Source of the DNA: Colwellia sp. 12G3
Lineage (GTDB): Bacteria; Pseudomonadota; Gammaproteobacteria; Enterobacterales; Alteromonadaceae
DNA: 64,000 bases
Assembly (NCBI RefSeq): GCF_002836775.1
Contig: NZ_PJAQ01000001.1
Coordinates: forward strand, 1 to 64,000
Reading direction: 5' to 3'
A program made the translations under genes and the position numbers. Positions 8,930 to 29,155 of the stretch are shown one piece after another (the first letter of the stretch is position 1; each line of letters begins with the position of its first letter). The notes beneath the pieces were generated by a model. It was not told the origin of the DNA. It did no database searches and saw only the letters and a list, made by a program, of their open reading frames with translations.

Positions 8930-8982
8930 AAATAATGTCGCGATGTCACTTAGCTTTATCGCTAAACAATGGAATAGATAAA

Positions 8983-10245: not shown

Positions 10246-12079
10246 TATTTCTTTTGCCTTAGCACGATTTGTGTTTTTGAGCTGTTTTGCACTCGCACTT
10301 ATTTCTACCGTTTTAGTTATCAACTATGCGGTTGATTCTGCACAACGCCAACAAGAGCAGTTAATAAAAAGAGAAACCACCGCAATAACTCACGGCTATC
10401 GCTTATTTCTCAAGCATCGGCTTACCTTACTCGCCGATCAAGCAAAGAACCCCATTATGGTACAAGCCTTAATGCAGCCAGAAGCGAATATAGGGAAATT
10501 ACAAGATTTCATGGCTGACCTTACTATTTTAGGCCATCAATATCAGCAAAATTTATTGGACTTTGAAGGTAATGTCATTTATTCAAAGCAAGATAAAAAA
10601 GCCCCTGATTATCATAATGAACCTTGGTTAAAGGATATAATAAACGACGAAGCGCCTAATCATATAGCCATTCTAAAACTCAACGATAATTACTTTTGGT
10701 GTTTAGCGGTAATCATTATGTATAACAACAATTTTGAAGGTGTACTTACCACGTTAATACCAATCGAAGATATAGATGAACAAGATGAAAAACTCGATAG
10801 TTTGATGATAAAAATAACAAGGAATGGTGAAGAGTTAAGCTCTTTTGGACAAGAAAGACACGGTAAACAGCACTCGGTTTATTGGCCAAATATTGGCGTT
10901 GTTTTCAGTTTTACTTTTGACGACAGCGCCAATAATGAAGAATTAAATGATGCGATAATCAAGTTGAGTACGTTAATTTTATTAGCACTCATTGCAACAA
11001 GTCTACTCGCCTATGTTTTTGGTTACCGGTACTTTGTAAAACCCTTGCTGCTGTTGTCTCAAGCGACAAGTAAATTACATAAAGGTAGTGAATTTGAGTT
11101 ACTTCAGGACAATATCACCATCAAAGAACTATCAGAGTTGTTTCAAAAATTCAATGTCATGACAAATAAGGTGCACCAAAGAGAAAGCTCATTAAAGCTC
11201 AGTTACGACAAATTATCAAAAGTTAATGATGAGTTGATTTTAAGTGAGTCCCAACTGATTCAATCAGAAAAAATGGCAAGTATTGGTGTGTTAGCCGCTG
11301 GTGTTGCTCACGAAATCAATAATCCCCTAGGGTTTGTTAAAAGCAATCTCGATGTTCTAAATGAATATTTAACCGACATTCAAAAATACCACCAAGAAAT
11401 AAATGAACACCTAACAACAGAAGCTTCAAAGGAATGGCATGTAGCATTAACTAAAAAATATGATATTGAATTCATTTTCGAGGATATGCCAGCCTTATTA
11501 ACCAGTAGTATTGGCGGTGTCGAAAAAATAACCGAGATTGTGCAAAGTTTGAAAACCTTTGCACGCATAGAAGAGTCGACTAAAAGTAAAACAGATATAA
11601 ACGAAGGTTTAACCGCAACACTTAACATGGTTAACAATGAACTCAAATATAATTGTGAAGTACATGTTGAACTAGACCCCTTGCCTATAATTTATGCTTA
11701 CCCAAGTAAATTGAATCAAGTGTTTATGAACCTACTCATTAATGCAGGCCAATCGATAACAGGTAGTGGCGAAATTTTTGTTAGAACCTTCCAGAAAGAA
11801 ACCGATATTGTCATAGAGATTAAAGATAACGGCAGTGGTATTGCTCCTGGTGTATTACCACATATTTTCACGCCGTTTTTTACCTCTAAGCCGGTAGGCC
11901 AAGGAACGGGCCTAGGGTTGTCTATCAGCCATGGAATTATCAAGCAACATGATGGCAGAATAGAAGTAACATCCGAAGAAGGTAAAGGTAGTTGTTTTTC
12001 TGTTTATATTCCTACCAATTTAAGTAAAAAAACTAAATATTCGAGTAATAAAATAGAGAGTGTTAAAAATAACTTTTGA
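10232..12079 (+). CDS. membrane sensor histidine kinase
   Basis: 615 residues: first membrane helix at about 10-32, a periplasmic sensing region of about 210 residues, second helix at about 247-270, HAMP, a short coiled coil, HisKA with the H-box AAGVAHEINNPLGF (His near residue 360), and an ATP domain with the N-box (FMNLLINAGQSI), G1 (DNGSGI) and GTGLGLSISHGI. It starts inside the previous gene (14-bp overlap), implying translational coupling and a shared function with the binding protein. There is no response regulator next to it, so its partner must be encoded elsewhere; the receiver-domain proteins at 15-16.6 and 27.9-29 kb are candidates only by proximity. Confidence 0.9.
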   Translation: MKKISISFALARFVFLSCFALALISTVLVINYAVDSAQRQQEQLIKRETTAITHGYRLFLKHRLTLLADQAKNPIMVQALMQPEANIGKLQDFMADLTILGHQYQQNLLDFEGNVIYSKQDKKAPDYHNEPWLKDIINDEAPNHIAILKLNDNYFWCLAVIIMYNNNFEGVLTTLIPIEDIDEQDEKLDSLMIKITRNGEELSSFGQERHGKQHSVYWPNIGVVFSFTFDDSANNEELNDAIIKLSTLILLALIATSLLAYVFGYRYFVKPLLLLSQATSKLHKGSEFELLQDNITIKELSELFQKFNVMTNKVHQRESSLKLSYDKLSKVNDELILSESQLIQSEKMASIGVLAAGVAHEINNPLGFVKSNLDVLNEYLTDIQKYHQEINEHLTTEASKEWHVALTKKYDIEFIFEDMPALLTSSIGGVEKITEIVQSLKTFARIEESTKSKTDINEGLTATLNMVNNELKYNCEVHVELDPLPIIYAYPSKLNQVFMNLLINAGQSITGSGEIFVRTFQKETDIVIEIKDNGSGIAPGVLPHIFTPFFTSKPVGQGTGLGLSISHGIIKQHDGRIEVTSEEGKGSCFSVYIPTNLSKKTKYSSNKIESVKNNF

Positions 12080-12678: not shown

Positions 12679-13692
12679 TTAATGTTTGATTGAACTGTTA
12701 CCAAAATTTAACATGGCAAATTTCTCTATACGACTATAAAGCTTACTTGGTAAAAACTTCAACCAAGCACAACACAACGTCATAATCGTTCGATTAGGCT
12801 CTTGAAAAATAATTCTGTAGTCACAGTATATTGCTTGGTGAATAAGTTTAAATGCAGAGAGCTTATTTTTTGATTGTACCGCTCTTCGGGCTAGATACCT
12901 TAACTGATACGCTTTAGCTAAGCTGTAAAACTGTTTGAAGAACGTTGGATCAGACGCTTTATTTAACATTACCGCGTGTTGCCAACTGGCAAACTGTTTA
13001 TCTACATCGGACGACAGACCTGAATCGTTAACACGATAATACGTTAGCGGTTGGCTAATTCCTTCAAACTGCCATGTTGTGTTTAAGGCTATTCTTGTCC
13101 AAAGTTCAATGTCTTCAGATTGCCTTAAACTTTCATCAAAATACATTCTACGGTATTTATCTTTATTAACACCAAAATAGCCTACTTCTGATAATACGGA
13201 TCTTCTAATGACAGGGGAAGAGCCATTGCCAACAGGGTTTCGACAAAATATATGCTGTTTCGTGATGTTCTTAAGCTTAGGAAATTGGCCAACACCTAAA
13301 AGTTCACCGTCTTCATTGATGAATAAAGAGGGGCAATAACTAATCCCTACTTTAGGGTTGGCACTTAAATGCTTAATGTGCTTTGTTAGTTTATCCGCTG
13401 CCCAATAATCATCGGCATCTAATAAGGCAATGTATATTCCTCTAGCAGCCTCTATACCGGTATTTCGAGCACCCGATAAACCTCTGTTAGCTTGGCGAAC
13501 AATCCGAATACGCGGATCAGTAAAGTTATTAACTATATTCAAGGTATCATCAACACAACCATCATCAACGAGAATAAGTTCGAAATGATGGTAACTTTGT
13601 TGTAAGACACTATTAATGCTTTGCTCTATATATTTTGCTACGTTATACATTGGAATAACGACCGACACTACGGGAATTGAATTAGCTAACAT
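12679..13692 (-). CDS. family 2 glycosyltransferase
   Basis: A 337-residue cytosolic GT-A enzyme. The N-terminus carries VSVVIPMYNVAKYIEQSINSV, the nucleotide-binding VDDGCVDDT and the LDADDYW motif (DxD-like); GNGSSPVIRRSVL and the SEDIELWTR acceptor/catalytic region follow. It transfers a sugar from a nucleotide donor during polysaccharide repeat-unit assembly. AGGAG precedes the ATG. It follows the flippase gene by 10 bp and belongs to the minus-strand part of the exopolysaccharide locus. Confidence 0.9.
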   Translation of the reverse strand: MLANSIPVVSVVIPMYNVAKYIEQSINSVLQQSYHHFELILVDDGCVDDTLNIVNNFTDPRIRIVRQANRGLSGARNTGIEAARGIYIALLDADDYWAADKLTKHIKHLSANPKVGISYCPSLFINEDGELLGVGQFPKLKNITKQHIFCRNPVGNGSSPVIRRSVLSEVGYFGVNKDKYRRMYFDESLRQSEDIELWTRIALNTTWQFEGISQPLTYYRVNDSGLSSDVDKQFASWQHAVMLNKASDPTFFKQFYSLAKAYQLRYLARRAVQSKNKLSAFKLIHQAIYCDYRIIFQEPNRTIMTLCCAWLKFLPSKLYSRIEKFAMLNFGNSSIKH

Positions 13693-13702
13693 GTGTTTTC
13701 TC

Positions 13703-14971
13703 CTATCGAATTACAGTACGTAAAATGTTGTTAACGGGCTTAATTACATTAATAAAAAAAATTGGAACCAAACAAAATAAACTACTAAAAAAGATAACCA
13801 AAGCAAACTCCATAGGCTCATTCGGCGTAAATATGAAAAGCGTTACTAGGCTAATAAAAAGGCATATGAATCGAGTCATTGTTTCACGGTGGTATTGCTC
13901 TGTTACGCGCTGCATACAACAGACAATATCTATCATTAAATTAGGGAGCGCGACTAAACATAATATTGTGATGATAGGTACTGCTGAAGACCATTTTTCA
14001 TCAAATAAAATAGGGACATAAATGGGCGCTACTAGCGCTTGAATAACAAAAAGAAAGCCAATGCATAAAGAAATAGCCAAGACTTTATTTTGTTGTGCTA
14101 ACAACTGCCCTTTTCTCTCTAATTTACACAAGTAAGGGTATAAAGCACCAATATAGACTTGGCTAATTGACTGACTTAAGCCAACCCCAGCGTTCTTCGC
14201 AAAGCTATAGAAGCCAAAAAGCTCAGGGGTTAACAACTTACCAGCAATAAAAGTATCAGCGTGCAGTCGTATGCCACGTAGAAATTCAGTATTGAATAAT
14301 TTACCTGAGGTTTGTAGCATCTGATTAATAATAGAGAGGTTAAAACCCACTCCAAATGTTTTAACGGGTGAAAATGAAAATAACAATAACCAAAATATTG
14401 AAAAAGCAACCTTACCTAAAGCGACTGATAAGATATCGGCCCCTAATAAAGCCGAAATGGCTATTGTGCAATTTTCAATGATTACGCACAGGCCATTTCT
14501 AATACTGAACCAGCGCATTTGATTTTCACGTTGTAACAGAAATATTTTAATACTTACCCAAGGATACAAAAGGTAAATTACCGCCATAATTTGTAATAAA
14601 ATAGTAATATTATCATTATCATAAAGTGATGAAAGGTAGCTGGCTGAGCTGAATTGACCTACCGCTATGGTTAAGCAAATACCCCATTGGATTATGATGC
14701 CATTTTTAGCAAAACCTTCTAGTTTATGGGGTTTACAATTGATAATTTGACTGCCAACACCTGCACGTAACAACAATCCAAAAACATCATGAAATGCTAA
14801 GGCTAAAATGGCAGTACCGTAGGACGTGGGGGATAATTGTGCAGCTAGCACGATAATAGTGAATATTCGTGATATTTTTGCTACAAATTCAGCACTGAGT
14901 AACCAAACGGCATTTGATAAAAGCTCAATGACTGAATTTAATTGTATTCTAAAAAATTGTATCAACTGCAT
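13703..14971 (-). CDS. oligosaccharide flippase (Wzx/MATE-like)
   Basis: A 422-residue polytopic membrane protein with 12 or so hydrophobic helices and the Polysacc_synt family pattern (AEFVAKISRIFTIIVLAAQLSPTSYGTAILAL at the N-terminus, ELFGFYSFAKNAGVGLSQSISQVYIGALYP in the middle). It probably flips undecaprenyl-linked repeat units across the inner membrane for Wzy-type polymerisation. AGGAAT precedes the start. First gene of a two-gene operon with the GT2 gene, and the only flippase gene in the locus. Confidence 0.9.
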   Translation of the reverse strand: MQLIQFFRIQLNSVIELLSNAVWLLSAEFVAKISRIFTIIVLAAQLSPTSYGTAILALAFHDVFGLLLRAGVGSQIINCKPHKLEGFAKNGIIIQWGICLTIAVGQFSSASYLSSLYDNDNITILLQIMAVIYLLYPWVSIKIFLLQRENQMRWFSIRNGLCVIIENCTIAISALLGADILSVALGKVAFSIFWLLLFSFSPVKTFGVGFNLSIINQMLQTSGKLFNTEFLRGIRLHADTFIAGKLLTPELFGFYSFAKNAGVGLSQSISQVYIGALYPYLCKLERKGQLLAQQNKVLAISLCIGFLFVIQALVAPIYVPILFDEKWSSAVPIITILCLVALPNLMIDIVCCMQRVTEQYHRETMTRFICLFISLVTLFIFTPNEPMEFALVIFFSSLFCLVPIFFINVIKPVNNILRTVIR

Positions 14972-15090: not shown

Positions 15091-15140
15091 CCACCGCGAC
15101 TATTTGCATGATGAAAATCATTACGGTGGTTATTTGCATA
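15091..15140. repeat. nested hairpin and TATTTGCAT direct repeats
   Basis: CCACCG (15091-15096) pairs with CGGTGG (15124-15129) around an inner ATGAT/ATCAT stem with a GAAA loop. TATTTGCAT occurs at 15101-15109 and again at 15131-15139, exactly 30 bp apart. The block lies between the stop of the response regulator gene and the promoter of the flippase gene, so it may be a terminator, an operator or both. No T-run follows. Confidence 0.4.
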
Positions 15141-15152
15141 TTAGGAATGCAC

Positions 15153-16631
15153 TTAATCTACTGGTGATGTTTGCCATTGCTGAATTTTGCGATAGAGTGT
15201 TGATGGACTCACACCTAATTCGCTTGCAGCCTTTACTATATTGTCTTGGCATAACTCTATAGCCTGTTCAATGGTTTGTCTTTCAACTTCAGCCAGTGTG
15301 ATAATTGATGGTGATGGTGATGGTGATGAATGATTAACCGGATGAACATTGGTATTTTGATTGTGCTGAGTTATTGGAGGATTACTGCTTTCTTTTTGAG
15401 TATAACGCTTAGGCTCTGGTTGTTTACTCTGCCTACCAAGTTGTTGAACAATAATCTTTTCAGAAATAAGAGGTCCTTCAGACATAACGGTTGAACTATG
15501 AACGATATTTTGTAACTGGCGAACATTACCTGGCCACGAATAAGATTTTATTAACGCTTCCGCGCCAGAAGAGAATCCAGCAAACACTTTACCTTCAATT
15601 TCACTAAAGTGGCTTAAAAAATGTTCAGCTAATTTCAAAATATCATTATCTCGCTCATTTAAGGCCGGTAAATCGATTGAAATAACGTTTAAGCGATAAA
15701 AAAGATCTTCACGTAATTTCTTTTCATTGATGGCCATTTGTGGCTCTCTATTCGTAGCACTAATAAAACGAATATCCACTTTTTCTTCTTTACCACTCCC
15801 CACCTTTTGAAAACAACCTGTTTGAATAAATCGCAATAACTTTGCTTGCAAACCAATATCCATCTCACCTATTTCATCAAGAAATAAGCTACCACCATTT
15901 GCCAGAGAAGCAGCCCCATCCCGGTTAGAAACAGCGCCAGAGAATGCTCCTTTAATATGACCAAACACTTCTGACTCCATTAACTCTGATGGAATAGCTG
16001 CACAGTTTAACGCAATAAAGGGTCCATTTTTCTTTTTGCTTAATCGATGAATTGCTTGTGCAGCCACTTCTTTACCTGCGCCACTAGGTCCAGTGATAAA
16101 GACAGAAGCATTACTGGGTGCGCTTTGTTCAATACACGAATAAACAAATTGCATAGCGACTGAGTCACCGATGAAGCCTTCAAAATTAGACTTATGATAT
16201 TTTTGATATTGATCAATTGTTCTTCGCATTAACGTTCTTTCAGCCAAAACTTGCTGTAATTGTAAGGCTTGTTTTAACTTTACGATAAGATCGAAGTTAT
16301 CCCAGGGTTTTTGAAGAAACCCCCAAATATGGCCATTATTAATTAAATTAACAATCATTTCCATATCGCCATGGGCTGTCAGCACCATACGAACTGTTTC
16401 AGGAGAAATTTTAGCGACTTGTTGCAGCAATTGATTGCCATCCATGTTTGGCATATTAAAATCAGACACGATCACATCGACAGGACACTCATTAATGATA
16501 TCAAGTGCGGCTTGCCCAGAAGAAGCCGTTAAAATAACAGCATCCAATTTTTTGGTAATACGTTCGAGAGCATGCAGGATTGCACGTTCGTCATCTACAA
16601 ATAAAATTCTTGGTTTATTTAAGTTCTGCAT
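15153..16631 (-). CDS. NtrC-type sigma-54-dependent response regulator
   Basis: About 492 residues: receiver domain (phospho-acceptor Asp in VSDFNMPNMDG, LTAHGD, conserved Lys in LQKPWDN; residues 8-125), AAA+ domain (Walker A GPSGAGKE, Walker B GGSLFLDEIGEM; about 155-385) and a C-terminal Fis-type helix-turn-helix (VKAASELGVSPSTLYRKI). The sigma-54 contact loop is GAFSGA instead of the usual GAFTGA. A Ser-Pro linker is encoded by a small DNA repeat. The ATG at 16631 follows AAGGG; the TTG at 16637 is unlikely. It is transcribed away from the exopolysaccharide genes, four of whose units have sigma-54 promoters, making it their likely activator. It resembles PrsR-type regulators of PEP-CTERM systems, but I do not assign that name. 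Confidence 0.92.
   Translation of the reverse strand: MQNLNKPRILFVDDERAILHALERITKKLDAVILTASSGQAALDIINECPVDVIVSDFNMPNMDGNQLLQQVAKISPETVRMVLTAHGDMEMIVNLINNGHIWGFLQKPWDNFDLIVKLKQALQLQQVLAERTLMRRTIDQYQKYHKSNFEGFIGDSVAMQFVYSCIEQSAPSNASVFITGPSGAGKEVAAQAIHRLSKKKNGPFIALNCAAIPSELMESEVFGHIKGAFSGAVSNRDGAASLANGGSLFLDEIGEMDIGLQAKLLRFIQTGCFQKVGSGKEEKVDIRFISATNREPQMAINEKKLREDLFYRLNVISIDLPALNERDNDILKLAEHFLSHFSEIEGKVFAGFSSGAEALIKSYSWPGNVRQLQNIVHSSTVMSEGPLISEKIIVQQLGRQSKQPEPKRYTQKESSNPPITQHNQNTNVHPVNHSSPSPSPSIITLAEVERQTIEQAIELCQDNIVKAASELGVSPSTLYRKIQQWQTSPVD
15307..15328. repeat. (GATGGT)n microsatellite inside the response regulator gene
   Basis: Three full copies plus GATG. On the coding strand it encodes the Ser-Pro repeat SSPSPSPSI joining the AAA+ and DNA-binding domains. 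The 6-bp unit would keep the frame if copy number changed. Confidence 0.7.
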
Positions 16632-16672
16632 TCCCAACCCTTAAAATTGTGATTATCGATCATATAAATAGC

Positions 16673-16702: not shown

Positions 16703-16960
16703 AACAGTGGTTAAATTTATAATTATTTAATGGAGAAAGTGTGTACCGATAATAAACATTTATTTTTTATATAGATAAAGAATAGTTGATATTCGTGATT
16801 AATATACGGTTGATAAATAAATATATCCATTACTTAGCCATAATAGCAAACATACTGAAATACAATAATGAAAAATAGTAAGTAAAACATTAGAGAGTAC
16901 TAACTATAACAACAACATAACTCATCATAAATTATTACCCTTGATAGCCGAATACATTCG

Positions 16961-16978
16961 CATTATGCAATGCAATGA
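16961..16978. promoter_or_regulatory. TGCAATGCAATG repeat, candidate activator site
   Basis: The run CATTATGCAATGCAATG contains two overlapping GCAAT half sites. It lies about 95-105 bp upstream of the sigma-54 -12 element of the glycosyltransferase gene, the same distance as the TTGCAA inverted repeats of the other units. The 16632-17123 intergenic region holds no gene. A second inverted repeat, GGTTAAA/TTTAACC, lies at 16985-17003. Confidence 0.45.
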
Positions 16979-17056
16979 TCAAATGGTTAAAAAGGGTTTA
17001 ACCGAATATCTTCTGTAGTGACCATTTATGCTGAAGAAATACACTCGTGAAATAGA

Positions 17057-17072
17057 TGGAGCAAATATTGCA
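17057..17072 (+). promoter_or_regulatory. sigma-54 promoter of the glycosyltransferase gene
   Basis: TGGAGCAAATATTGCA: GG and GC elements with the correct 10-bp gap and a perfect TTGCA at -12. The start codon lies at 17124, leaving a leader of about 40 nt. Confidence 0.7.
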
Positions 17073-17112
17073 GTTAACCTTCAATGAGATAAACATTGTT
17101 GGTTAACTGCAA
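17068..17112. repeat. 12-bp perfect inverted repeat across the -12 element and ribosome binding site
   Basis: TTGCAGTTAACC (17068-17079) and GGTTAACTGCAA (17101-17112), 21-nt spacer. The left arm starts with the TTGCA of the sigma-54 promoter and the right arm runs into the AAAGG ribosome binding site. It could be a repressor operator; the transcript would contain only the right arm. Confidence 0.6.
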
Positions 17113-17123
17113 AGGTGAAATTT

Positions 17124-17855
17124 ATGGAACATAAAACGTTAATACTTAGTATTGCTCTAAACGGTTATCAATGGATGTATCAACGAGAGCTGAAGTCTCA
17201 TCTACATTATGCAAAAAAATACGGCTATGTTCACCAAGCAGTAACGCGTCCTTATGTTTCTGCTTTAGGGGTAGAGTGTTGTTGGCTTAAGTTGACATTA
17301 ATACGAGCAGCTTTATTGTCAGGGTATGAAAATGTGCTATTTTTGGATGCCGATACTATGGTTAACCCAAATTGCCCTAGTTTAACCGATGTATTTCAAG
17401 CCGGAAAATATGTTTATATGGCAAAAGGATATTCTAATCGATTCAATTCAGGTGTGCTTTTAGCAAGAAATAATGCACAAACCATAACATGGCTTACGCG
17501 TATTATTGATGCCAGATTTAATAAAGTTCAAACCGAAAACGATGTGGGCTGGGGGGAAAATGGCCATGTGATTGAACTAAGTAAAGGTGTGCCTTTTATA
17601 GTAGAGCTAGATCAAAAGTGGAATAACACCTTCGATTATCAGTTAAAAGATTATATTCGTCATCATAATTGTGGTCCTATGAGAACTGGCTTTGTAAATA
17701 ATTTTTTTCATAAAATAGTTTTTTTCCTATCTGCCCGACTATTGGCTTTAGTCAATAAAAACAAATCAGTTACAGCTATAAAACCTAATGAAGATATTTT
17801 GTCACGAGAAACAAATGTCATTCTATCTATCTATTCAAAACTTGTCTGTCTTTAA
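17124..17855 (+). CDS. glycosyltransferase with DxD motif (GT8/GT34-like)
   Basis: About 243 residues. The central motif CWLKLTLIRAALLSGYENVLFLDADTMVNP contains the DAD metal/nucleotide-sugar motif typical of GT-A enzymes such as GT8 and GT34. FNSGVLLARNN and ENDVGWGENGHV follow as expected for the acceptor side. A GTG at 17115 is in frame, but AAAGGTG sits seven bases before the ATG at 17124, so the latter is chosen. Transcribed alone from its own sigma-54 promoter at the head of the plus-strand exopolysaccharide genes. The sugar transferred is unknown. Confidence 0.75.
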   Translation: MEHKTLILSIALNGYQWMYQRELKSHLHYAKKYGYVHQAVTRPYVSALGVECCWLKLTLIRAALLSGYENVLFLDADTMVNPNCPSLTDVFQAGKYVYMAKGYSNRFNSGVLLARNNAQTITWLTRIIDARFNKVQTENDVGWGENGHVIELSKGVPFIVELDQKWNNTFDYQLKDYIRHHNCGPMRTGFVNNFFHKIVFFLSARLLALVNKNKSVTAIKPNEDILSRETNVILSIYSKLVCL

Positions 17856-17865
17856 AAATCATCGG

Positions 17866-17906
17866 TATATTGCAAAGTGATAATTTAATTTTTATTTTGC
17901 AATATA
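17866..17906. promoter_or_regulatory. TTGCAA inverted repeat, candidate activator site
   Basis: TATATTGCAAA (17866-17876) and TTTGCAATATA (17896-17906) are perfect 11-bp arms with centres 30 bp apart. The site ends about 105 bp before the -12 of the sigma-54 promoter at 17998, an ordinary distance for an enhancer-type site. Confidence 0.65.
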
Positions 17907-17997
17907 TCATGCTTCCTATTTTAAGAAAAATAACAAAGATACAACCATAAATATAAAAACCCCTTTAATTACAGCTCACTAAAATAAAACTACAGGT

Positions 17998-18013
17998 TGG
18001 CATACCTTAAGCA
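17998..18013 (+). promoter_or_regulatory. sigma-54 promoter of the WecG-like/sugar transferase operon
   Basis: TGGCATACCTTAAGCA has the invariant GG and GC with a 10-bp gap. The start codon lies 39 bp downstream, and the leader contains two copies of GGTTAAC (18021-18027 and 18041-18047), 20 bp apart. Confidence 0.75.
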
Positions 18014-18051
18014 ATGTACAGGTTAACTACCACTACTTCAGGTTAACCGAA

Positions 18052-19341
18052 ATGATAAATACTAAATTTTCACTTCAAACGATGACTCAATCCTTCAAGC
18101 ATTACGATTCCATTAATCATCAGTACAGTGGAACTTTTATAGATCGCCCTGTAGCCCTTGTGCTTATTATAATGCTCCTCCCCTGCTTCCTGATAAATAT
18201 ACTGTTGGCTTTATGCACTAAAAGAAACATCTTCTCAATACAGCATAAAACAGATGCTTTAAGTAGAACGGTAATGTTACATAACTTTAGTTGTGGTATT
18301 TGGGTCAAAACTGCTGCGCTATTTGATATTTACTCAGGAAGGATTTCTTTTTGCGGTATTCCTTTAACTCACCGACTTTCACCCGACATGCAATTTTGTG
18401 TTATCAACCAAATAAAGTGTAAAGCAGGCGTTTTTAGTTTGTATGATTTACACATTAAAACGGGTTTAACAATAATGAGTAAAGAGCAATTACTTGAACA
18501 GCAGCTTAATGGTAATGCCGTTGACTATTTAGCGCTTATGATAAAAAGTTTTATGTCCGTTGTTTTTTATGGTCGAACAATACAAAAACTTCACAAAGCT
18601 AAGGTCTTATCTTTATTTGGTTTAAACGTTAACAACACCTCGATGGCAGAAGCTGTCGATTGGATAACACAGACACATCAAAATAAAACTAATATAGGTT
18701 TTTTCATCAACGTAAATTCAATTAACTTGTCAATAAGCGACCCTGAATTTTTTAATCAACTAAGTAAAGCAAATGCCTTATTTGCTGATGGATCAGGCAT
18801 GAGATTAGCAGCGAAAAAAGCGGGTTTTCTTCTTAACGGTAATAATAATGGTACGGACATGTTGCCTCACCTTTGTCGGAGCTGTGTTCAAAGCAAGCAA
18901 TCTTTATATTTCTTTGGGGCAAAACCAGGTATTGCTAAACAGGCCGCAAGTCAATTATGCAATCAATTCCCAGGACTCAATATTGCGGGTACTGAACATG
19001 GCTTTAACGAAGATAATAATGCCGATGAAATTATTGAATCAATAAATAACAGTGGTTGCGACATATTATTAGTCGCTATGGGATCACCCGTACAGGAGAA
19101 ATGGTTACTCGAACATAGAGATAAGTTGCAGTGCAAAACCGCATTAGCTGTAGGTGGACTATTTGATTTTTATTCTGGCAATATCTCACGGTCACCTATG
19201 TGGCTAAGAGAAATTGGTATGGAATGGGTTTGGCGTTTAATACAAGAACCTCGTAATAAGTTCAATCGTTATGTTATTGGTAACCCGCTTTTTTTATATA
19301 GAACTTTCTTTCTTGGTTTAGTGAATACAGGGGAAAAATAA
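18052..19341 (+). CDS. WecG/TagA/CpsF-family glycosyltransferase with degenerate sugar-transferase N-terminus
   Basis: 429 residues. The C-terminal half (about 185-429) is a GT26 domain: LFGLNVNNTSMAEAVDWI, FADGSGM, NGTDMLPHL, FFGAKPGIAKQAA, VAMGSPVQEKW and VGGLFDFYSG are all present. It would add the second sugar to an undecaprenyl-linked acceptor. The first 180 residues are extra for this family: a membrane helix (about 32-52) and a stretch (IYSGRISFCGIPLTHRLSP) that looks like a bacterial sugar transferase lacking its catalytic motifs. It overlaps the real priming sugar transferase by 1 bp (TAATG). Confidence 0.88.
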   Translation: MINTKFSLQTMTQSFKHYDSINHQYSGTFIDRPVALVLIIMLLPCFLINILLALCTKRNIFSIQHKTDALSRTVMLHNFSCGIWVKTAALFDIYSGRISFCGIPLTHRLSPDMQFCVINQIKCKAGVFSLYDLHIKTGLTIMSKEQLLEQQLNGNAVDYLALMIKSFMSVVFYGRTIQKLHKAKVLSLFGLNVNNTSMAEAVDWITQTHQNKTNIGFFINVNSINLSISDPEFFNQLSKANALFADGSGMRLAAKKAGFLLNGNNNGTDMLPHLCRSCVQSKQSLYFFGAKPGIAKQAASQLCNQFPGLNIAGTEHGFNEDNNADEIIESINNSGCDILLVAMGSPVQEKWLLEHRDKLQCKTALAVGGLFDFYSGNISRSPMWLREIGMEWVWRLIQEPRNKFNRYVIGNPLFLYRTFFLGLVNTGEK

Positions 19342-20021
19342 TGACTATTCAAATTATGCAACAAGTTAAAAACAACGTATTAATTACGGGTACTCCTCAA
19401 CATATAATAAAAAATTTCAAACATAAAGGGATACCAGTTATCTTGCAACAAAGCGTTGCGCTAATTGCGTTACTATTAATAAGCCCATTACTTTTATTAG
19501 TGTTTATTTTCATCAAAACTGAAAGTACGGGTAGTGCCTTATTCTCGCAAACAAGAGTCGGTGAAAATGGTCGACATTTCAAAATGTATAAGTTCCGCTC
19601 TATGTACTTAAAAACTGACCCTCATTATCAAGAGCCAGACCCTACACAAAGCTCTCGTGAAGGTGTTTGTAAGAAGTATATTAATGACCCTCGAATTACC
19701 AAAACAGGCCAATTTATTAGAAAATATTCGATAGATGAGATCCCGCAGTTATTTAATATTGTTAGAGGTGATATGTGTTTGGTAGGACCTAGGCCTGCCT
19801 TATCTATTGAAACTTATGAGTATGATAACGACGTTCAAACACGATTATTTACCAAACCGGGTCTAACGGGCTTATGGCAAGTGTCTGGTCGTGCAGATAC
19901 TAATTTTGAAGAACAGTTAAAGTTAGACAAAACGTATATTAAGCAGCAAAGCTTTTTAATGGATTGTAAAATAATAGCGCTCACCATTCCTGCTGTTTTA
20001 AGTGCAAAAGGTGCTTATTAA
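19341..20021 (+). CDS. undecaprenyl-phosphate sugar-1-phosphate transferase (priming enzyme)
   Basis: A 226-residue short-type bacterial sugar transferase with one membrane helix (about 36-56) and the catalytic domain: QTRVGENGRHFKMYKFRSM, RKYSIDEIPQLFNIVRGDM, VGPRP and PGLTGLWQVSGR. It transfers a sugar phosphate from UDP-sugar to undecaprenyl phosphate to begin each repeat unit. The large N-terminal membrane region of WcaJ-type enzymes is missing. It is coupled to the WecG-like gene and followed by a strong terminator, so these two form one operon. Confidence 0.93.
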   Translation: MTIQIMQQVKNNVLITGTPQHIIKNFKHKGIPVILQQSVALIALLLISPLLLLVFIFIKTESTGSALFSQTRVGENGRHFKMYKFRSMYLKTDPHYQEPDPTQSSREGVCKKYINDPRITKTGQFIRKYSIDEIPQLFNIVRGDMCLVGPRPALSIETYEYDNDVQTRLFTKPGLTGLWQVSGRADTNFEEQLKLDKTYIKQQSFLMDCKIIALTIPAVLSAKGAY

Positions 20022-20065
20022 AATTAACAAGCACTGCGCACAACAGCATCATTTAGGCATGAACT

Positions 20066-20106
20066 AAAAAAGTGAATTGATAAAGCCTATTATCAATTCA
20101 CTTTTT
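20066..20106. terminator. strong terminator after the sugar transferase gene
   Basis: A 17-bp perfect stem AAAAAGTGAATTGATAA (20066-20082) and its complement at 20090-20106, 7-nt loop, ending in a T6 run at 20102-20107. It separates the priming operon from the wza operon. Confidence 0.9.
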
Positions 20107-20150
20107 TATGATGTATCTCTACCAATTTTGGTTATTTCCTTGTAAATAGC

Positions 20151-20187
20151 ATTTTGCAAAATTGAGAAAACGCATTGCACATTGCAA
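20151..20187. promoter_or_regulatory. TTGCAA palindrome cluster, candidate activator site
   Basis: The perfect palindrome ATTTTGCAAAAT (20151-20162) is followed by GCATTGCACATTGCAAAA (about 20172-20189). This gives three TTGCA half sites, 85-120 bp upstream of the sigma-54 -12 of the wza operon. Confidence 0.6.
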
Positions 20188-20260
20188 AACACAATATCCC
20201 TCCCCTCATTAAAAAACATAAATACCATATAAAACAATAACTAAAGAACAAACCTACAGT

Positions 20261-20276
20261 TGGTACGTTAAGTGCA
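20261..20276 (+). promoter_or_regulatory. sigma-54 promoter of the wza-type operon
   Basis: TGGTACGTTAAGTGCA: GG and GC with a 10-bp gap and TGCA at -12. The start codon at 20323 lies about 47 bp downstream. GTTAACC (20299-20305) occurs in the leader, as in the two preceding units. Confidence 0.75.
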
Positions 20277-20322
20277 ATTAATGATTAGTGTTTAGAGCGT
20301 TAACCTTATCATGGAGAATATT

Positions 20323-21600
20323 ATGCTGTATCAGCCATTTAACAATTATAAAATGATACCCCTACTCGTTGCCTTGTTTGCAACTTTGGCTTTACAAGGT
20401 TGTGCTAGGCATTCTTCAGAAAACATGGATAAGTCTGCACTTCGATTTTATGGCATGCCTGCTGATAATGGCGATGACTTTATTCATGAAAAGGCCCCCA
20501 ATAGCGTCTTCGCTGAGGGTTTAAATTGTAGTCAATTTAAAGATATGGGGGCAGCATTAAATTATAGAACAGACAAACCCATTAATTTAACGACTACCAG
20601 CATTATAGCGACGGGTGAGAATGACCTTATTTTGGCTCAAGGCTTAATATTAAGTCCTGGAGATTTAGTTGAAGTATTAATAGAAGATGGTGAAGGTTTT
20701 AATGGACGTTATATTATTGATAACGCTGGATATGTAAAACTTCCATTGATAGGTATTATAGAAGCGGGAGGAGCAACAACTAATACATTAGAGGATAAAA
20801 TTGAATTGGCCCTTGTTAGGGCTGAGATATTTCAACCCGCCAACGCAAGTGTCACGATACATGTGTTGAATTGGTCATCTATTTCAGTTTCTGTTGCTGG
20901 TGCTGTATTTAATCCCGGTACCGTATTAATCAATAGAAGACCTAAGGGCGTTCAAAACGCCGAACATTTAGCAGCTTACGGTGATTATTCACCCACGCGT
21001 TTATTGTCTGAAGCAATTAGAACAGCATCAGGTATTAGACCGGACGCTAAATTAGACCAGATAATTTTGATACGTAAAGGCTGGCAAGTACAAATAGATA
21101 TGACGGGCATGTTAACGGGTGACTTGGTAAAAGATTACCCTTTAGTGGCCGGTGACCGAGTAATAGTGCCTAGTACAGGTTGCTTTCAACCGCATTTAGT
21201 TAGACCAAGCCAAATTACCCCTAAAGGTTTTCGTGTTTTTATGTCTAACCTGATTGATTCTGCGGGAGATAATGCGAGTGCTGGTATCGGTAAATTTGCA
21301 ACAAGTTTGCCCTATGGCACACGTTTACTTCAGGCTGCGGTTTCTGCTAATTGCGTTGGTGGTAAAGAGTGGACTAATGCACCGCGTAGAGTCGTGCTTT
21401 CAAGTAGAAATCCAATCACAGGTGAAACGCAAGTTATTGAACGTTCCGTTGAAGAGTTGATGACTATGCCTAATAAAGGGCAAATTAATCCTTACCTTAT
21501 GCCAAATGATGCGGTTGCTTGTTACGATTCAGATATTACCAACTACCGAGATATTGCCAAAACCCTTACCGATCTTATTATTCCATTCAAATTATTATAG
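20323..21600 (+). CDS. Wza-type outer-membrane polysaccharide export lipoprotein
   Basis: About 425 residues. Signal peptide with lipobox LALQGC, so a lipoprotein. The Poly_export domain (LILSPGDLVEVLIEDGEGFNG..IIDNAGYVKLPLIGIIEAGG) is followed by SLBB-type segments (VSVAGAVFNPGTV, AIRTASGIRPDAKLDQIILIRKG). It should form the outer-membrane channel for the exopolysaccharide. An ATG at 20311 is in frame, but GGAG at 20312-20315 seven bases before the ATG at 20323 favours the later start. The next gene, a Wzz-like co-polymerase, lies 7 bp downstream. Confidence 0.92.
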   Translation: MLYQPFNNYKMIPLLVALFATLALQGCARHSSENMDKSALRFYGMPADNGDDFIHEKAPNSVFAEGLNCSQFKDMGAALNYRTDKPINLTTTSIIATGENDLILAQGLILSPGDLVEVLIEDGEGFNGRYIIDNAGYVKLPLIGIIEAGGATTNTLEDKIELALVRAEIFQPANASVTIHVLNWSSISVSVAGAVFNPGTVLINRRPKGVQNAEHLAAYGDYSPTRLLSEAIRTASGIRPDAKLDQIILIRKGWQVQIDMTGMLTGDLVKDYPLVAGDRVIVPSTGCFQPHLVRPSQITPKGFRVFMSNLIDSAGDNASAGIGKFATSLPYGTRLLQAAVSANCVGGKEWTNAPRRVVLSSRNPITGETQVIERSVEELMTMPNKGQINPYLMPNDAVACYDSDITNYRDIAKTLTDLIIPFKLL

Positions 21601-21607
21601 GTGATTT

Positions 21608-22999
21608 ATGAAGTACCCTATTATTCCATTAACAAAGTTTGGGTTATTTAGAGCACAAACATACGCTGTATTGAAGCGCCCATATTTGGTTGTCGCTTTA
21701 GCTTCTTATGTCATGGTTGCTCTACTTGTACTCATTTATTTAAATAAAGCGCCATCATTTAGCAGCGATATGGAAATGGTATTGCCCGGTACTGGCAGTA
21801 GTAACAGCGTATCTCTTGATAATGTTGGTCAAGTTGTCTCACAAACTAACACGCCTTTTTCTGGTGGTGGCTTTAACCCTCGTGTTAATTATAAAGAGAT
21901 GTTATCGAGTAGAGGTGTAAGAGCGCGTGCAGCAAAAAAACTACATATCTCAATTGAAAGCCTTGGTAAGCCTAAAATTAAACTTACCGAACAAACTTCA
22001 ATTATTTCACTTGAGATGAGTGCTAATGGCAAGGACCTAGCACAAGCAAAAACGCTTGCGCTATATGAATCTTTACAAGATGAGTTAAATAACTTAAGAG
22101 CTGACGAAGTATTACGTCGTGATCGCAGCATTAAACAAGTGCTTGACCAATATAGAGAACGAATGAACATAACGCGTAACGCTATTGTTGATTTTCAACA
22201 ACGCTCTATTGTGGTGTCAACAGATCAAATGAACCAACTGGTGAGAACCCTTTCAGGTGTTCGAGAAAAGCACCTTTATATCAAAGCCGAAGCAAAACAA
22301 TTACAAGAATATATATATCAGTTAAGTGAAGAGTTAGGTGTGTCACCAAAATTAGCTGGGCAAGCGTTTGCCCTTCAATCAGATGTCGAGTTTCGTGCTT
22401 ACATTACAGAACTAAAAGAAAGCATAACCCAACTCACAGAATACAGTTCACGGTGGGGAGTTAATCATCCAAAAGTTAAAGCGCAACAGAAAAGATTAAA
22501 TTTTACCCGTATTGCGATTAACGAAAGAAGTAGTCAAATGTACGGTGTTAATTCTAATGAAATATTTAATTCATTGAATTTAGATTTAAATCCAAAACGA
22601 TCTGAATTGTTTGCTGATTTAATTGACGCTTATGCAAAGCAAAAGGGACAAGAGTCAATGTTAGAAGACTTAGGTCGCTCCGCACTCCATTTAGGTGATC
22701 AATTAAAAATTTATTCACGAGAAATTGTTGAATTAGAACGTTTACAAAGAGAATTTAACATGGCGGAAGCAATATTTACCTCAGCAGCAGCAAGACTTGA
22801 AGCAAGTAAATCAGATGTTTTTGCGTCTTATCCTGTACTGCAAATGTTAACAACGCCCTCTTATCCAACGAAACAAAGTAGCCCTAAAAATATCATTGCT
22901 TTTATTGGCGCAATAACCGGATTTATATTTATCACCTTAGGATTAATTATCTTATCGCAACGTAATAAGTTAATTAACATAATTCTTAAAAGGGATTAA
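21608..22999 (+). CDS. Wzz/Wzc-like chain-length and export protein without kinase domain
   Basis: 463 residues with a membrane helix near residues 30-50, a long periplasmic coiled-coil region (about 130-420, including LDQYRERMNITRNAIVDFQQRS) and a C-terminal membrane helix (about 430-452, preceded by the Pro-rich TTPSYPTKQSSPKN). This is the polysaccharide co-polymerase layout. The cytosolic tyrosine kinase of Wzc is absent and no separate kinase gene is present in the window. It is thought to set chain length and join the inner-membrane machinery to the Wza-type channel. Confidence 0.87.
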   Translation: MKYPIIPLTKFGLFRAQTYAVLKRPYLVVALASYVMVALLVLIYLNKAPSFSSDMEMVLPGTGSSNSVSLDNVGQVVSQTNTPFSGGGFNPRVNYKEMLSSRGVRARAAKKLHISIESLGKPKIKLTEQTSIISLEMSANGKDLAQAKTLALYESLQDELNNLRADEVLRRDRSIKQVLDQYRERMNITRNAIVDFQQRSIVVSTDQMNQLVRTLSGVREKHLYIKAEAKQLQEYIYQLSEELGVSPKLAGQAFALQSDVEFRAYITELKESITQLTEYSSRWGVNHPKVKAQQKRLNFTRIAINERSSQMYGVNSNEIFNSLNLDLNPKRSELFADLIDAYAKQKGQESMLEDLGRSALHLGDQLKIYSREIVELERLQREFNMAEAIFTSAAARLEASKSDVFASYPVLQMLTTPSYPTKQSSPKNIIAFIGAITGFIFITLGLIILSQRNKLINIILKRD

Positions 23000-23040
23000 A
23001 TTAGTTTAAGTAATTAATAACTAATCAACAATTTATAATG

Positions 23041-23077
23041 AATTGCAAAATGAAAATAACCTTTTTATTTTGCAATT
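23041..23077. promoter_or_regulatory. TTGCAA inverted repeat, candidate activator site
   Basis: AATTGCAAAAT (23041-23051) and ATTTTGCAATT (23067-23077), perfect 11-bp arms with centres 26 bp apart, about 97 bp upstream of the -12 at 23175. Confidence 0.65.
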
Positions 23078-23161
23078 TACTGATTTACCTTCCTTCAACA
23101 CAAAACCGCCAAAAACAAATAAAACCAAAGATATCAATAGCCTGAAATTTATTAATGGTGT

Positions 23162-23177
23162 TGGCACACCTTTAGCA
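23162..23177 (+). promoter_or_regulatory. sigma-54 promoter of the ligase/pyruvyl transferase operon
   Basis: TGGCACACCTTTAGCA: a perfect TGGCAC at -24 and GC at the right distance. The start codon at 23283 leaves a leader of about 95 nt. Confidence 0.8.
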
Positions 23178-23282: not shown

Positions 23283-24551
23283 ATGACAACTAAACGACTT
23301 AACCCACAATCTACTGAAGAAAAGCTGATCTGGTTCGGGTTAACACTAACTTATCCATTCTTTGCTTTTGGTGGTCTTTATATTATGGGTTCAGTGCTAG
23401 GTTGGATGATATTTGCCGTCGTTTTACTACGCTGGTATGTCAACGGTAAAGACGAACTTGCAGCCATACCTGTCATTGTTTGGTTATGGGTAATTGGAGG
23501 TCTGTTTATGCTGTTGGCGTTATTCATTGGTCATTCAAATTGGGACTTAGGCATAGCGAAAACAATTAAATCGTCCCTTGGTTGGGCTAAAGGTTGGGCC
23601 CTTATGCCACTATTTTTATTTATTGGTGCATTTGTAGATATCAAACCGCAATTACTGATCAGAGCCGTATGCATTGTTTCATTCCATTCATTAATTTTTG
23701 CTGTTATCACCATTGTTCTTTATATGGCTGGCGTTCATGGCGATTTATTTGTTTCTCCTCTAAAAGTTATTGGTGGCCCTGGCGAAACCTTTTTTACCGT
23801 GAGTTTATTCGGCTTAAACCCTGAAACAGGTGCCGGACGTTGGAGGTTTTTCACCCCTTGGGCTCCGGCTGCAGGTTTTATGGCATGTATATTTTTGATT
23901 TTTACTTGCCAAGAAAAAGATAATTTTTGGAGAAATACCGGTTTATTAGGCAGTTTTGTGATGTCTTTGTTGTCTCAATCGCGTGCTGGCTGGGTTATTT
24001 ATATCGCTTTAACACCGTTATGTTTACTACATAAATATTTTAAAAACCCTGTGTTATTAATCGTTATTGGTGTCGTAATTCCTGCCATCGTCTTATTAGG
24101 TGAGCCTTTATTTAATTGGCTAAACAATAGCTATTTAGATATTAAAGCTTCGCGTCCTGGTTCAACACGTGTCCGTAACACCTTAGAAGTTTTAGCACTA
24201 CAGCGCTGGGAATCCGAAGCACCTATTTGGGGGCACGGCATTGTAGAGAAAGGTCCTAAAATTGTTGAGGGTATGCCTATCGGCTCACATCATAGTTGGT
24301 ACGGATTGTTATTTGTAAAAGGGATTGTGGGATTATTAGCGTTAGCAATTCCCTTAGCTTTTACTTGTATTTACTTATTTTGGCACAGTCTGAAAAGCAA
24401 AATTTGTTATACCGCAGCGTTAATGCTTGTTGTTTTTATTTGTTACTCTTTTTTTGAAAACCTAGAAATTTTAAGTTTTATTTACTGGCCAGCACTTTTA
24501 TGGATTGGTATTGCACTTAACCCATTAAAATCAGGAGAAAAGTATGTTTAA
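23283..24551 (+). CDS. O-antigen ligase / Wzy-type polymerase
   Basis: 422 residues with 10-12 membrane helices and the Wzy_C pattern: a large periplasmic loop with RPGSTRVRNTLEVLALQRW and GHGIVEKGP..., then SHHSWYGLLFVKGIVGLLAL. These are the conserved Arg- and His-containing loops of polymerases and ligases that act on undecaprenyl-linked sugars. In this locus a repeat-unit polymerase is the likeliest role. There is no clear ribosome binding site before the ATG at 23283. It overlaps the pyruvyl transferase gene by 8 bp. Confidence 0.85.
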   Translation: MTTKRLNPQSTEEKLIWFGLTLTYPFFAFGGLYIMGSVLGWMIFAVVLLRWYVNGKDELAAIPVIVWLWVIGGLFMLLALFIGHSNWDLGIAKTIKSSLGWAKGWALMPLFLFIGAFVDIKPQLLIRAVCIVSFHSLIFAVITIVLYMAGVHGDLFVSPLKVIGGPGETFFTVSLFGLNPETGAGRWRFFTPWAPAAGFMACIFLIFTCQEKDNFWRNTGLLGSFVMSLLSQSRAGWVIYIALTPLCLLHKYFKNPVLLIVIGVVIPAIVLLGEPLFNWLNNSYLDIKASRPGSTRVRNTLEVLALQRWESEAPIWGHGIVEKGPKIVEGMPIGSHHSWYGLLFVKGIVGLLALAIPLAFTCIYLFWHSLKSKICYTAALMLVVFICYSFFENLEILSFIYWPALLWIGIALNPLKSGEKYV

Positions 24552-27733: not shown

Positions 27734-27859
27734 TCGGTTTTATAGCGAAACGTTTGACAATATAGAGCAATAACTAAATAATTTTTAGAGAAAACCCCCT
27801 ATTATTATGTAGAAGTATTATATTAAATTGAGACATTGGTAAAACCTAAGGATGAAGAG

Positions 27860-29155
27860 ATGAGCAAACCGGCTTTATTGGTTATTGATGATGAAAAGGA
27901 GGTTCTCAGTGCACTAAATAGAGCCTTAAGAAAAGAATTTGAATTGTTTCTTTTTTCTGACCCCCTTGCTGCGCTTGAATTTTATCGAGACAAGCCAATA
28001 CCGTTAGTATTGTCTGATATGAGAATGCCCACAATGGATGGTGCAACGCTCTTAGGTCATATTAGTGAAATTAACCCTAGCTCAAAGCGATTTTTATTGA
28101 CTGGTCATGCAGATATTAACCTAACTGTTGCAGCCGTTAATGAAGGAAAAATCAGCCACTACTTTGCTAAGCCTTGGGATAATATCGAGCTCGTTGGTGA
28201 ATTGAAAGCTGCTTTTACAGTTTATTTATCTGAATTAAGTACCAAGAAGTTGATCAGAGTTAATAAAGAGAAAAACGCTAAACTCTCTTTATTAAATAGC
28301 TCGATGGAGCTCGAAATTAATGAAAGTAAAAAGAAACTCGATTTAATTTCAACCAAGGAAGCAAAGAGTTTTTCACGTTTGAAAAGAACCTTTAATACCT
28401 TTGTCGGCGTATACGCCAACAGTATTGCTTTACATAATGAAGAATACAGCCAACACAATTATAGAATAGCCTCGCACGCCCGTTATATTGCCGAACTATT
28501 AGACTGTGATAAATTACTGAGCTATCAAATCTATATCGCTGGTTTATTATATGAGGCAGGAAAAATAGCATTACCGCAAACATTGCTAAAAAAACCTTAT
28601 GACCAACTTAATCATCAGGAGCAATCTCTGTTTGATAGTTTTTACCAAATAGGTGCTGATTTATTGAATGACGTTGATGAGCTTGCGTTTGTTGTTGAAA
28701 TAATCAAGCATATCCCCGAGCACTTCGATGGAACGGGCTTACCTGAACACTTAAGCGCTGACGATATACCACTTGGTTCACGTATACTAGCGATGGTAAC
28801 TCACTTTGATAATTTAGTGATCGGGAGACAACATATAAAACCCATTTCAGTCATTGAAGCAAAACAACGACTGAATAAAATGTCAGGAAGCCGATTTGAA
28901 CCTAAATTAATATCACGATATCTCGATATGCTTTCAGCACTGCCTGGGAGTACAAAAGTGAATAACCTAGAAATTCCAATAGACTTAATGCAGTTGTGTG
29001 AGGGTTTAATATTAACGCAAGACGTGGTAAACAACTCATCTAGTGTCTTACTAACAAAAGGGACGATCATTGAGCAAAGTCATATAGATAAATTAGTAGA
29101 GATAAGCAATGAGCGTAACGAACAATTCTCTATTTTCATTCAAAGAGCAGAGTAA
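27860..29155 (+). CDS. response regulator with degenerate HD-GYP domain
   Basis: About 431 residues from the ATG at 27860 (AGGA upstream; the TTG at 27836 is less likely). A receiver domain with phospho-acceptor Asp (LSDMRMPTMDG) and Lys (AKPWDN) is joined by a coiled coil to an RpfG-like domain. The catalytic signature is altered: where HD-GYP enzymes have HDIGK, this has YEAGK (GLLYEAGKIALP, about residue 230), and GYP is GLP (EHFDGTGLPEHL). Loss of the metal-binding His-Asp argues against c-di-GMP hydrolysis. It may bind c-di-GMP or a partner instead. It sits at the end of the exopolysaccharide locus and may control it. Confidence 0.88.
   Translation: MSKPALLVIDDEKEVLSALNRALRKEFELFLFSDPLAALEFYRDKPIPLVLSDMRMPTMDGATLLGHISEINPSSKRFLLTGHADINLTVAAVNEGKISHYFAKPWDNIELVGELKAAFTVYLSELSTKKLIRVNKEKNAKLSLLNSSMELEINESKKKLDLISTKEAKSFSRLKRTFNTFVGVYANSIALHNEEYSQHNYRIASHARYIAELLDCDKLLSYQIYIAGLLYEAGKIALPQTLLKKPYDQLNHQEQSLFDSFYQIGADLLNDVDELAFVVEIIKHIPEHFDGTGLPEHLSADDIPLGSRILAMVTHFDNLVIGRQHIKPISVIEAKQRLNKMSGSRFEPKLISRYLDMLSALPGSTKVNNLEIPIDLMQLCEGLILTQDVVNNSSSVLLTKGTIIEQSHIDKLVEISNERNEQFSIFIQRAE

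Follow-up and report, generated by a model that had tools for sequence, protein, structure and literature searches.

The first 64,000 nucleotides of contig NZ_PJAQ01000001.1 of Colwellia sp. 12G3, analysed here as one window at full length, contain a Wzx/Wzy-type polysaccharide locus, recognised by profile searches of the window proteins, and beside it the gene for an NtrC-type response regulator. We describe the sigma-54-type promoters of this locus, the operators upstream of them, and the regulator that probably reads them. The locus encodes a flippase, a family 2 glycosyltransferase, a GT8-like and a WecG/TagA glycosyltransferase, an initiating transferase, Wza-like, Wzc-like and Wzy-like proteins, a pyruvyltransferase, a further family 2 glycosyltransferase, and an acyltransferase. 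The pyruvyltransferase, glycosyltransferase and acyltransferase genes lie 3' of the Wzy-like gene, up to 27733, and all score above their profile cut-offs; the GT8-like protein falls marginally short of the Glyco_transf_8 profile (PF01501, 24.2 bits against a cut-off of 24.3). The genome measures 5.06 Mb and has a single copy of rpoN. Related loci occur in Colwellia, Paraglaciecola, Glaciecola, Psychromonas and Marinibactrum, the closest mostly in Colwellia, with 81-86% identity across the Wza-like protein; C. psychrerythraea ND2E and C. demingiae ACAM 459 are among the culturable carriers.

Promoters and operators of the polysaccharide locus

An earlier sequence-only reading had placed GG-N10-GC sigma-54 elements at 17057, 17998, 20261 and 23162, and all four were found there, one before each of the GT8, WecG-PHPT, Wza-Wzc and Wzy units (Table 1). 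The perfect 11-bp inverted repeats that it reported are real as well (17866-17876/17896-17906 and 23041-23051/23067-23077), both embedded in longer imperfect ones (20 nt at 85%, 16 nt at 94%), although they are better described as pairs of a quasi-palindromic operator, TTGCA-N3-TGCAA, in opposite orientation. The 12-bp palindrome ATTTTGCAAAAT at 20151-20162 is perfect. GCAAT copies do stand near 16961, but a few bases off and adjacent (16967-16971/16972-16976) rather than overlapping. The proposed spacing of 85-105 bp before the -12 fits mainly the proximal sites, while the nine operator centres span 79-123 bp upstream of the GG. All four units are thus borne out, but the list was incomplete, having overlooked a probable fifth promoter on the minus strand, before the flippase/glycosyltransferase operon. 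Between the PHPT and Wza units lies a hairpin that is perhaps a terminator dividing them, and in the GT8 unit a 19-nt inverted repeat (89%) at 17068-17112 runs across both -12 and leader, where a hairpin at the transcript start is possible.

Expectation maximization from random starts on 84 upstream regions returned TTTGCA-AWT-TGCAAA as the best unconstrained motif; with palindromy imposed, the winner at width 16 was an AT-rich variant lacking the GC, which also scored marginally better at widths 15 and 17. At the sequence level, the unconstrained motif matches the upstream activating sequence (UAS) of LuxO, given as TTGCAWWWTGCAA in a passage of PMC10162802. A 17-column operator matrix was seeded with this motif and built from 80 promoters, window excluded. 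Its six top positions in the window all lie in the four promoters. Ranks 7 and 10 fall in the fifth, which was outside the training set, and ranks 8 and 12 elsewhere; 11 of the 13 top positions fall in the five promoters. Two operators of at least 9 bits were found in 72 of 107 promoters, and the distance between the top two is 20-22 bp in 25 of the 72 and 28-31 bp in 31, close to two and three helical turns. The best site reaches at least 8 bits in 80 of 86 promoters, and its centre lies at a median distance of 93 bp before the GG (interquartile range 81-104, full range 59-136 bp), values drawn mostly from the training set itself. The perfect TTGCACATTGCAA upstream of Wza is one of five perfect boxes in the genome.

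The fifth element ends in GA instead of the GC of the other four. Upstream of the flippase genes of related loci, a conserved core, TTGGAAYGAAWCTTGAA, stands in the -24/-12 register; the search fixed TGG and TG at the given spacing and left the remaining core letters free. Of 20 loci, 15 have GA as the -12 dinucleotide, 3 have GT and 2 have GC, a count that leaves out L151 (rearranged order) and enters L158 as GG-N10-GT after an earlier tied choice of another stretch. An operator of at least 11 bits precedes Wzx in 18 of 21 loci against 0.86 expected; this flippase set omits L040, L041 and L052, where the gene runs off the locus, and L155 and L157 replace two of them. In L055 and L056, the two loci with GC at -12, both of genus g52, the best operator lies about 145-165 bp before the GG.

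Table 1. Genes, promoter elements and operators of the locus (window coordinates; operator scores and ranks from the 17-column matrix)
Feature	Position	Strand	Remarks
Family 2 glycosyltransferase, 3' of Wzx	12679..13692	-	flippase/glycosyltransferase operon
Wzx-like flippase	13703..14971	-	Polysacc_synt_3
Fifth, candidate sigma-54 element TGGAATGAATCTTGAA	15017..15032	-	GG-N10-GA, non-canonical; 61 bp before Wzx start
Proximal operator, fifth promoter	15102..15118	-	12.2 bits, rank 7, centre 79 bp before GG
Distal operator, fifth promoter	15132..15148	-	11.4 bits, rank 10, centre 109 bp before GG
NtrC-type response regulator, presumed activator	15153..16637	-	Pfam Response_reg, Sigma54_activat, HTH_8; GAFSGA loop
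Operator, GT8 unit	16956..16972	+	14.6 bits, rank 4, centre 94 bp 5' of GG
Sigma-54 element TGGAGCAAATATTGCA, GT8 unit	17057..17072	+	GG-N10-GC
GT8-like glycosyltransferase	17115..17855	+	Nucleotid_trans (PF03407) 23.1 bits, cut-off 22
Distal operator, WecG unit	17868..17884	+	11.5 bits, rank 9
Proximal operator, WecG unit	17888..17904	+	12.8 bits, rank 5, 20 bp from distal (centres)
Sigma-54 element TGGCATACCTTAAGCA, WecG-PHPT unit	17998..18013	+	GG-N10-GC
WecG/TagA/CpsF glycosyltransferase	18052..19341	+	PF03808 187.8 bits
Initiating sugar-phosphate transferase (Bac_transf; PHPT)	19341..20021	+	PF02397 200.9 bits
Hairpin, perfect, 19 nt	20065..20108		between PHPT and Wza units
Distal operator, Wza unit	20145..20161	+	14.6 bits, rank 3
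Proximal operator, Wza unit, with perfect TTGCACATTGCAA	20173..20189	+	15.9 bits, rank 1
Sigma-54 element TGGTACGTTAAGTGCA, Wza-Wzc unit	20261..20276	+	GG-N10-GC
Wza-like export protein	20311..21600	+	Poly_export, SLBB domains
Wzc-like chain-length protein	21608..22999	+	weak NCBIfam EpsF/XrtA chain-length matches, ~29 bits, far under cut-offs
Distal operator, Wzy unit	23041..23057	+	15.6 bits, rank 2
Proximal operator, Wzy unit	23061..23077	+	12.6 bits, rank 6
Sigma-54 element TGGCACACCTTTAGCA, Wzy unit	23162..23177	+	GG-N10-GC
Wzy-like polymerase	23283..24551	+	Wzy_C 29.9 bits, marginally under cut-off 31.7

Conservation among relatives and expectation by chance

The comparison set comprises 29 loci around the Wza-like orthologue, the window included. 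The 28 further loci came from two sources (18 and 10); five were present in both, and one copy of each was kept. L152 was dropped as a copy of L046, L043 (near-identical to L042) was left out of motif training, and the partial L058 was left out of the Wza count. A sigma-54 element counted as a conserved composite when two or more TTGCA/TGCAA words lay 50-135 bp before it. The composite precedes GT8 in 17 of 23 loci, WecG in 17 of 26, Wza in 24 of 28 and Wzy in 10 of 29, where shuffles of those upstream regions gave 0.18, 0.04, 0.16 and 0.14. Over the four sets, 68 of 106 orthologous regions carry it, where about 0.5 would be expected. The same count before control genes inside the operons was 0/27 for PHPT, 0/29 for Wzc, 0/27 for GT2b and 2/28 for PyrT (shuffles 0.20, 0.10, 0.02 and 0.62). 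The Wzy promoter is present in all ten loci with a gap between Wzc and Wzy and in none of the 19 in which the genes overlap, and thus looks gained or lost as a unit.

Statistics within the window are weaker. The loose composite, defined by a sigma-54 score of 17.5 or more together with two 5-mers, occurs five times, against a shuffled mean of 2.3 and a maximum of 6, and a composite lies upstream of exactly the GT8, WecG, Wza and Wzy genes among 45 open reading frames tested (48 were listed; three overlapping ones were omitted). With each single motif at or below chance, as set out below, window statistics alone do not prove the case. Because the combination is conserved across the set of 29 loci, we nevertheless consider the observation settled. 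The sequence-only reading had held that the consistent geometry makes chance unlikely; chance is indeed excluded, but by conservation across the loci, the geometry of a single window being insufficient.

On the scale of the genome, TTGCAAA-N10-28-TTTGCAA occurs at four places in 5.06 Mb, against one for the reversed pattern: the WecG promoter, the Wzy promoter, a site before a tRNA-Leu gene and a site within a reading frame. Stricter composites recover two of the four promoters, together with one or two sites elsewhere, and there may be further weak regulon members. A loose genome pattern was set aside; it matched 47 of 147 genomes. Among 26 loci with this pattern from genomes without a clear Wza orthologue, 21 had it within an open reading frame of 120 codons or more, and in genome G133 a single stretch, present in copies, accounts for 13 matches. 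Of 23 matches in the 16 genomes that have a clear Wza orthologue (the own genome counted), 18 fall at the locus and one more in a degraded duplicate, by a hand count in which some entries are overlapping or both-strand readings of one site.

One relative (G130, contig 1, around 4302358; L100) carries a decayed duplicate of the Wzc-Wzy junction. Both frames are broken, and the paired operators and sigma-54 element are kept in front of an acyltransferase gene. Their persistence despite the decay fits selection on the control element. L100 had also been considered as a regulated small RNA; this was dropped, as it is the decayed duplicate before the acyltransferase. L108, from another relative (G001), combines a sigma-54 element with paired TTGCAA sites upstream of a 74-aa reading frame, and a regulator search of that genome at E <=1e-120 gave no match.

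The neighbouring regulator and its relatives

The regulator has the domains of the NtrC class: a REC domain, an AAA+ sigma-54 interaction domain and a Fis-type helix-turn-helix (HTH). Its best NCBIfam model is LuxO (NF041946, an equivalog), at 469.7 bits under a cut-off of 800, and it scores 352.1 bits against PrsR (TIGR02915), under a cut-off of 502.6. The best-matching solved structure, 5ep0, is also of LuxO. The putative recognition helix, VSPSTLYRKIQ, is almost identical to the VSPSTIYRKLQ of 10 of the 13 LuxO-model proteins over cut-off and has no counterpart in the 19 other sigma-54 activators of the genome, a set for which all 74 candidates were scored and three weak Pfam hits excluded.

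In a quick maximum-likelihood tree of 62 rows with Shimodaira-Hasegawa-like approximate likelihood ratio test (SH-aLRT) support, 24 distinct regulators form one clade (SH-aLRT 99), L150, L151 and L152 from other families of the order among them. Its sister is a clade (SH-aLRT 99) of LuxO, LuxO-like and SypG-like proteins. The regulator is found, at no less than 56% identity, in all 15 relatives with a clear Wza orthologue, own genome aside; in 13 it is on the same contig within about 21 kb, and in G076 and G107, both fragmented assemblies, as a partial match on another contig. Nine other genomes, a non-random sample of four from the same genus and five picked for pattern matches, gave no match at the threshold (E <=1e-120) in eight cases and a LuxO-side relative in G035. 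The row for G035, labelled EPS, falls on the LuxO side of the tree. On contig 45 of that genome (L109/L177), this regulator, 45% identical, has TTGCAA sites and a sigma-54 element no more than about 1 kb away, which precede a 318-aa frame resembling, by eye, a nucleotide-sugar epimerase; this is perhaps a separate regulon of the same kind.

Self-regulation was considered and rejected: within 320 bp upstream of the regulator gene, none of 11 loci has an operator scoring 9 bits or more. At 8935-12079 of the window there is a gene for a periplasmic binding protein (Peripla_BP_6), followed by one for a histidine kinase with a sub-threshold Cache match. L150 has a similar pair beside its flippase-regulator block, and elsewhere this is mostly not so. 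The pair found no support as a dedicated partner: full-length relatives of the kinase occur in only 4 of 25 genomes, one is present in the same-genus G135, where the regulator search (E <=1e-120) gave no match, and in G025 it lies on a different contig from the regulator.

Proposed regulon and alternatives

Taken together, we read the locus as a five-promoter, sigma-54-dependent exopolysaccharide regulon under the regulator encoded at 15153-16637, with a probability of roughly 0.86. The sites, their spacing and conservation, the protein clade and its co-occurrence with the locus are features of the sequences themselves. The sequence-only reading had named the neighbouring NtrC-type gene as the activator, and the conserved composites, the co-occurrence across genomes and the pairing of a LuxO-like HTH with a LuxO-type operator make this the best-supported choice. 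By analogy with the NtrC family, the phosphorylated regulator would bind the TTGCA-N3-TGCAA operators as dimers, at sites that usually come in pairs, with centres some 60-135 bp (median 93) 5' of the promoter GG. With the pairs mostly some two or three helical turns apart, the dimers would share one face of the DNA, which could aid assembly of a hexameric ring. The ring would then loop to the sigma-54 polymerase held closed at -24/-12 and open it in an ATP-driven step. The initiating transferase, glycosyltransferases, export, chain-length and polymerase proteins and the flippase would be switched on jointly.

Several points weigh against this. The 29 loci share kinship, and hence their counts are not independent events. 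The training promoters of the operator matrix are orthologous to those of the window, and each was chosen for its sigma-54 element, preferably with upstream TTGCA words. The GT8 promoter of the window has one good operator, and in 5 of 23 GT8 promoters, the window counted, no operator reaches 9 bits. The window has 27 copies of TGG-N10-GCA alone, with 28.5 expected, and 37 of TTGCANNNTGCAA (up to two mismatches), with 59.6 expected, and perfect LuxO boxes are as frequent in the genome as their reversed control, at 5 each. Across relatives, the regulator has no consistently linked kinase.

That the repeats arise by chance, or belong to an unrelated repeat family without a regulatory role, would suit the near-chance window counts of the single motifs and the loose composite, but it is contradicted by the cross-species test and by the confinement of operator-pair spacing to two narrow classes, and we give it almost no credence. 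It is also improbable that the operators are read by another activator of the LuxO/SypG type, such as the quorum-sensing LuxO, with the neighbouring gene incidental. The operator consensus is that of LuxO, and a passage of PMC10162802 describes overlapping UASs of SypG and LuxO at qrr1 of Vibrio fischeri. The neighbouring regulator is, on the other hand, the only LuxO-model match at E <=1e-130 in the genome among the 6 of 126 first-look candidates scored, it alone of the 20 activators (three weak hits excluded) has the SPST-YRK helix, and it accompanies the locus in all 15 relatives that have it. Very improbable is a PEP-CTERM PrsK/PrsR regulon. This shares the principle of an NtrC-type regulator, sigma-54 sites and exopolysaccharide genes, and a table row in PMC1569441 lists two adjacent loci for Colwellia psychrerythraea 34H in columns that we take as PrsK and PrsR; yet the score of our regulator is below the PrsR cut-off, the tandem kinase typical of PrsR (12 of 13 in that paper) does not adjoin it, and the polysaccharide proteins are far below the cut-offs of the XrtA system.

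For the fifth promoter, a separate doubt concerns the element itself, which could be a conserved sigma-70 promoter or some other element that happens to sit below the operators. In 18 of 20 loci GC is missing from the -12, and with the GG/TG register built into the search, its occurrence in all 20 is by selection. The longer core is common beyond the letters searched, though, two loci of one genus have the canonical GC at the same place, and in most loci the operator distance equals that of the other four promoters. Validated sigma-54 promoters that depart from the consensus, -12 deviations included, are named in a part of PMC12316311. We consider the sigma-70 explanation rather unlikely and the element probably a sigma-54 promoter with a conserved departure from GC, in the sense that it would work like one.

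Judged by its sequences, the five-promoter regulon is a SypG-like polysaccharide regulon with a LuxO-type operator and a regulator clade of its own. The syp locus of V. fischeri and rbd-type loci are likewise described, in passages of PMC10162802 and PMC4517449, as having an NtrC-type regulator, sigma-54 polysaccharide promoters and upstream enhancers. SypG-like proteins, whose rows were recognised by gene context alone with no confirmed SypG sequence included, share a superclade with our regulator (SH-aLRT 100) but lie outside its clade. The SypG UAS is given as TTCTCANNNTGMDWN in PMC10162802, unlike the TTGCA-N3-TGCAA found here; SypG has GAFTGA where this regulator has GAFSGA, and the gene content differs from that of a syp-type locus, with no kinase directly beside the regulator. 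LuxO of Vibrio, a quorum-sensing regulator that controls Qrr small RNAs, is alike in operator and HTH and provides the best-matching solved structure; it differs in that our regulator scores below the LuxO equivalog cut-off, belongs to a sister clade, has GAFSGA and has polysaccharide genes as its conserved predicted targets. The PrsK/PrsR regulon, as outlined in PMC1569441, likewise joins polysaccharide genes to an NtrC-type regulator and a sigma-54 site, and is unlike in the points given above. BerB and the Bep polysaccharide of Burkholderia cenocepacia are a further related case, in which biofilm formation involves RpoN and another regulator (PMC5552954). The type of regulon is known; its own regulator clade, the extra promoter and a possible, testable coupling of loop and -12 set this one apart. 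We recognised no account of it in the open-licence literature, in searches run mostly without Colwellia as a term and with matches largely judged by listing. The sites suggest a LuxO-type operator read by a third regulator clade with polysaccharide genes as conserved targets, and offer a site-by-site prediction of how a polysaccharide locus common to several genera is switched on.

The GAFSGA loop is present in all 26 distinct regulators of the clade (24 by tree; G076 and G107 by identity). Threonine stands at this position in all 30 best-scoring LuxO-model loci (27 GAFTGA, 3 GSFTGA), in five LuxO-side or SypG-like rows and in 18 of the 19 other activators of the genome, the remaining one having no match. 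Mutant studies by Dago et al. in 2007 reportedly gave rise to the idea that the activator loop senses the promoter fork, and clade-wide GAFSGA together with a deeply conserved non-GC -12 would be a natural test of it. The regulator clade and its promoters may have co-adapted at the fork junction, GAFSGA tolerating or selecting a non-GC -12, but we find this doubtful. Since both traits are clade-wide, they amount to one association, not many. The loop threonine contacts sigma-54 (a passage of PMC2941729), and variants such as GAFSGA retain activity (parts of PMC4641369 and PMC6615313). GAFSGA also occurs in other activators (passages of PMC4641369, PMC6615313 and PMC5371669) and exact GAFTGA in just 355 of 490 activators (PMC6615313), so the serine change is not unique to the clade. 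If co-adaptation were true, the flippase operon would respond to this activator and to no other of the genome, or would be opened by it at a set lower rate, and the -12 base would belong to an activator-specific code that sets the proportion of flippase relative to the other assembly proteins.

Some further observations concern other loci and the flank of this one. L146, L147 and L148 are polysaccharide loci with SypG-like regulators, sigma-54 elements and upstream sites of the TTCTCA/TGAGAA type (for example TTCTCAAATTGAGAA in L146), a sister arrangement in which the operator is that of SypG. At the end of the window's polysaccharide locus, 27836-29155 encodes a response regulator with an HD-type phosphodiesterase domain (NosR family, 362 bits, cut-off 400). 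Beyond it, 30600-31619 encodes a member of the TIGR04562/TIGR04552 families with a sub-threshold RelA/SpoT match.

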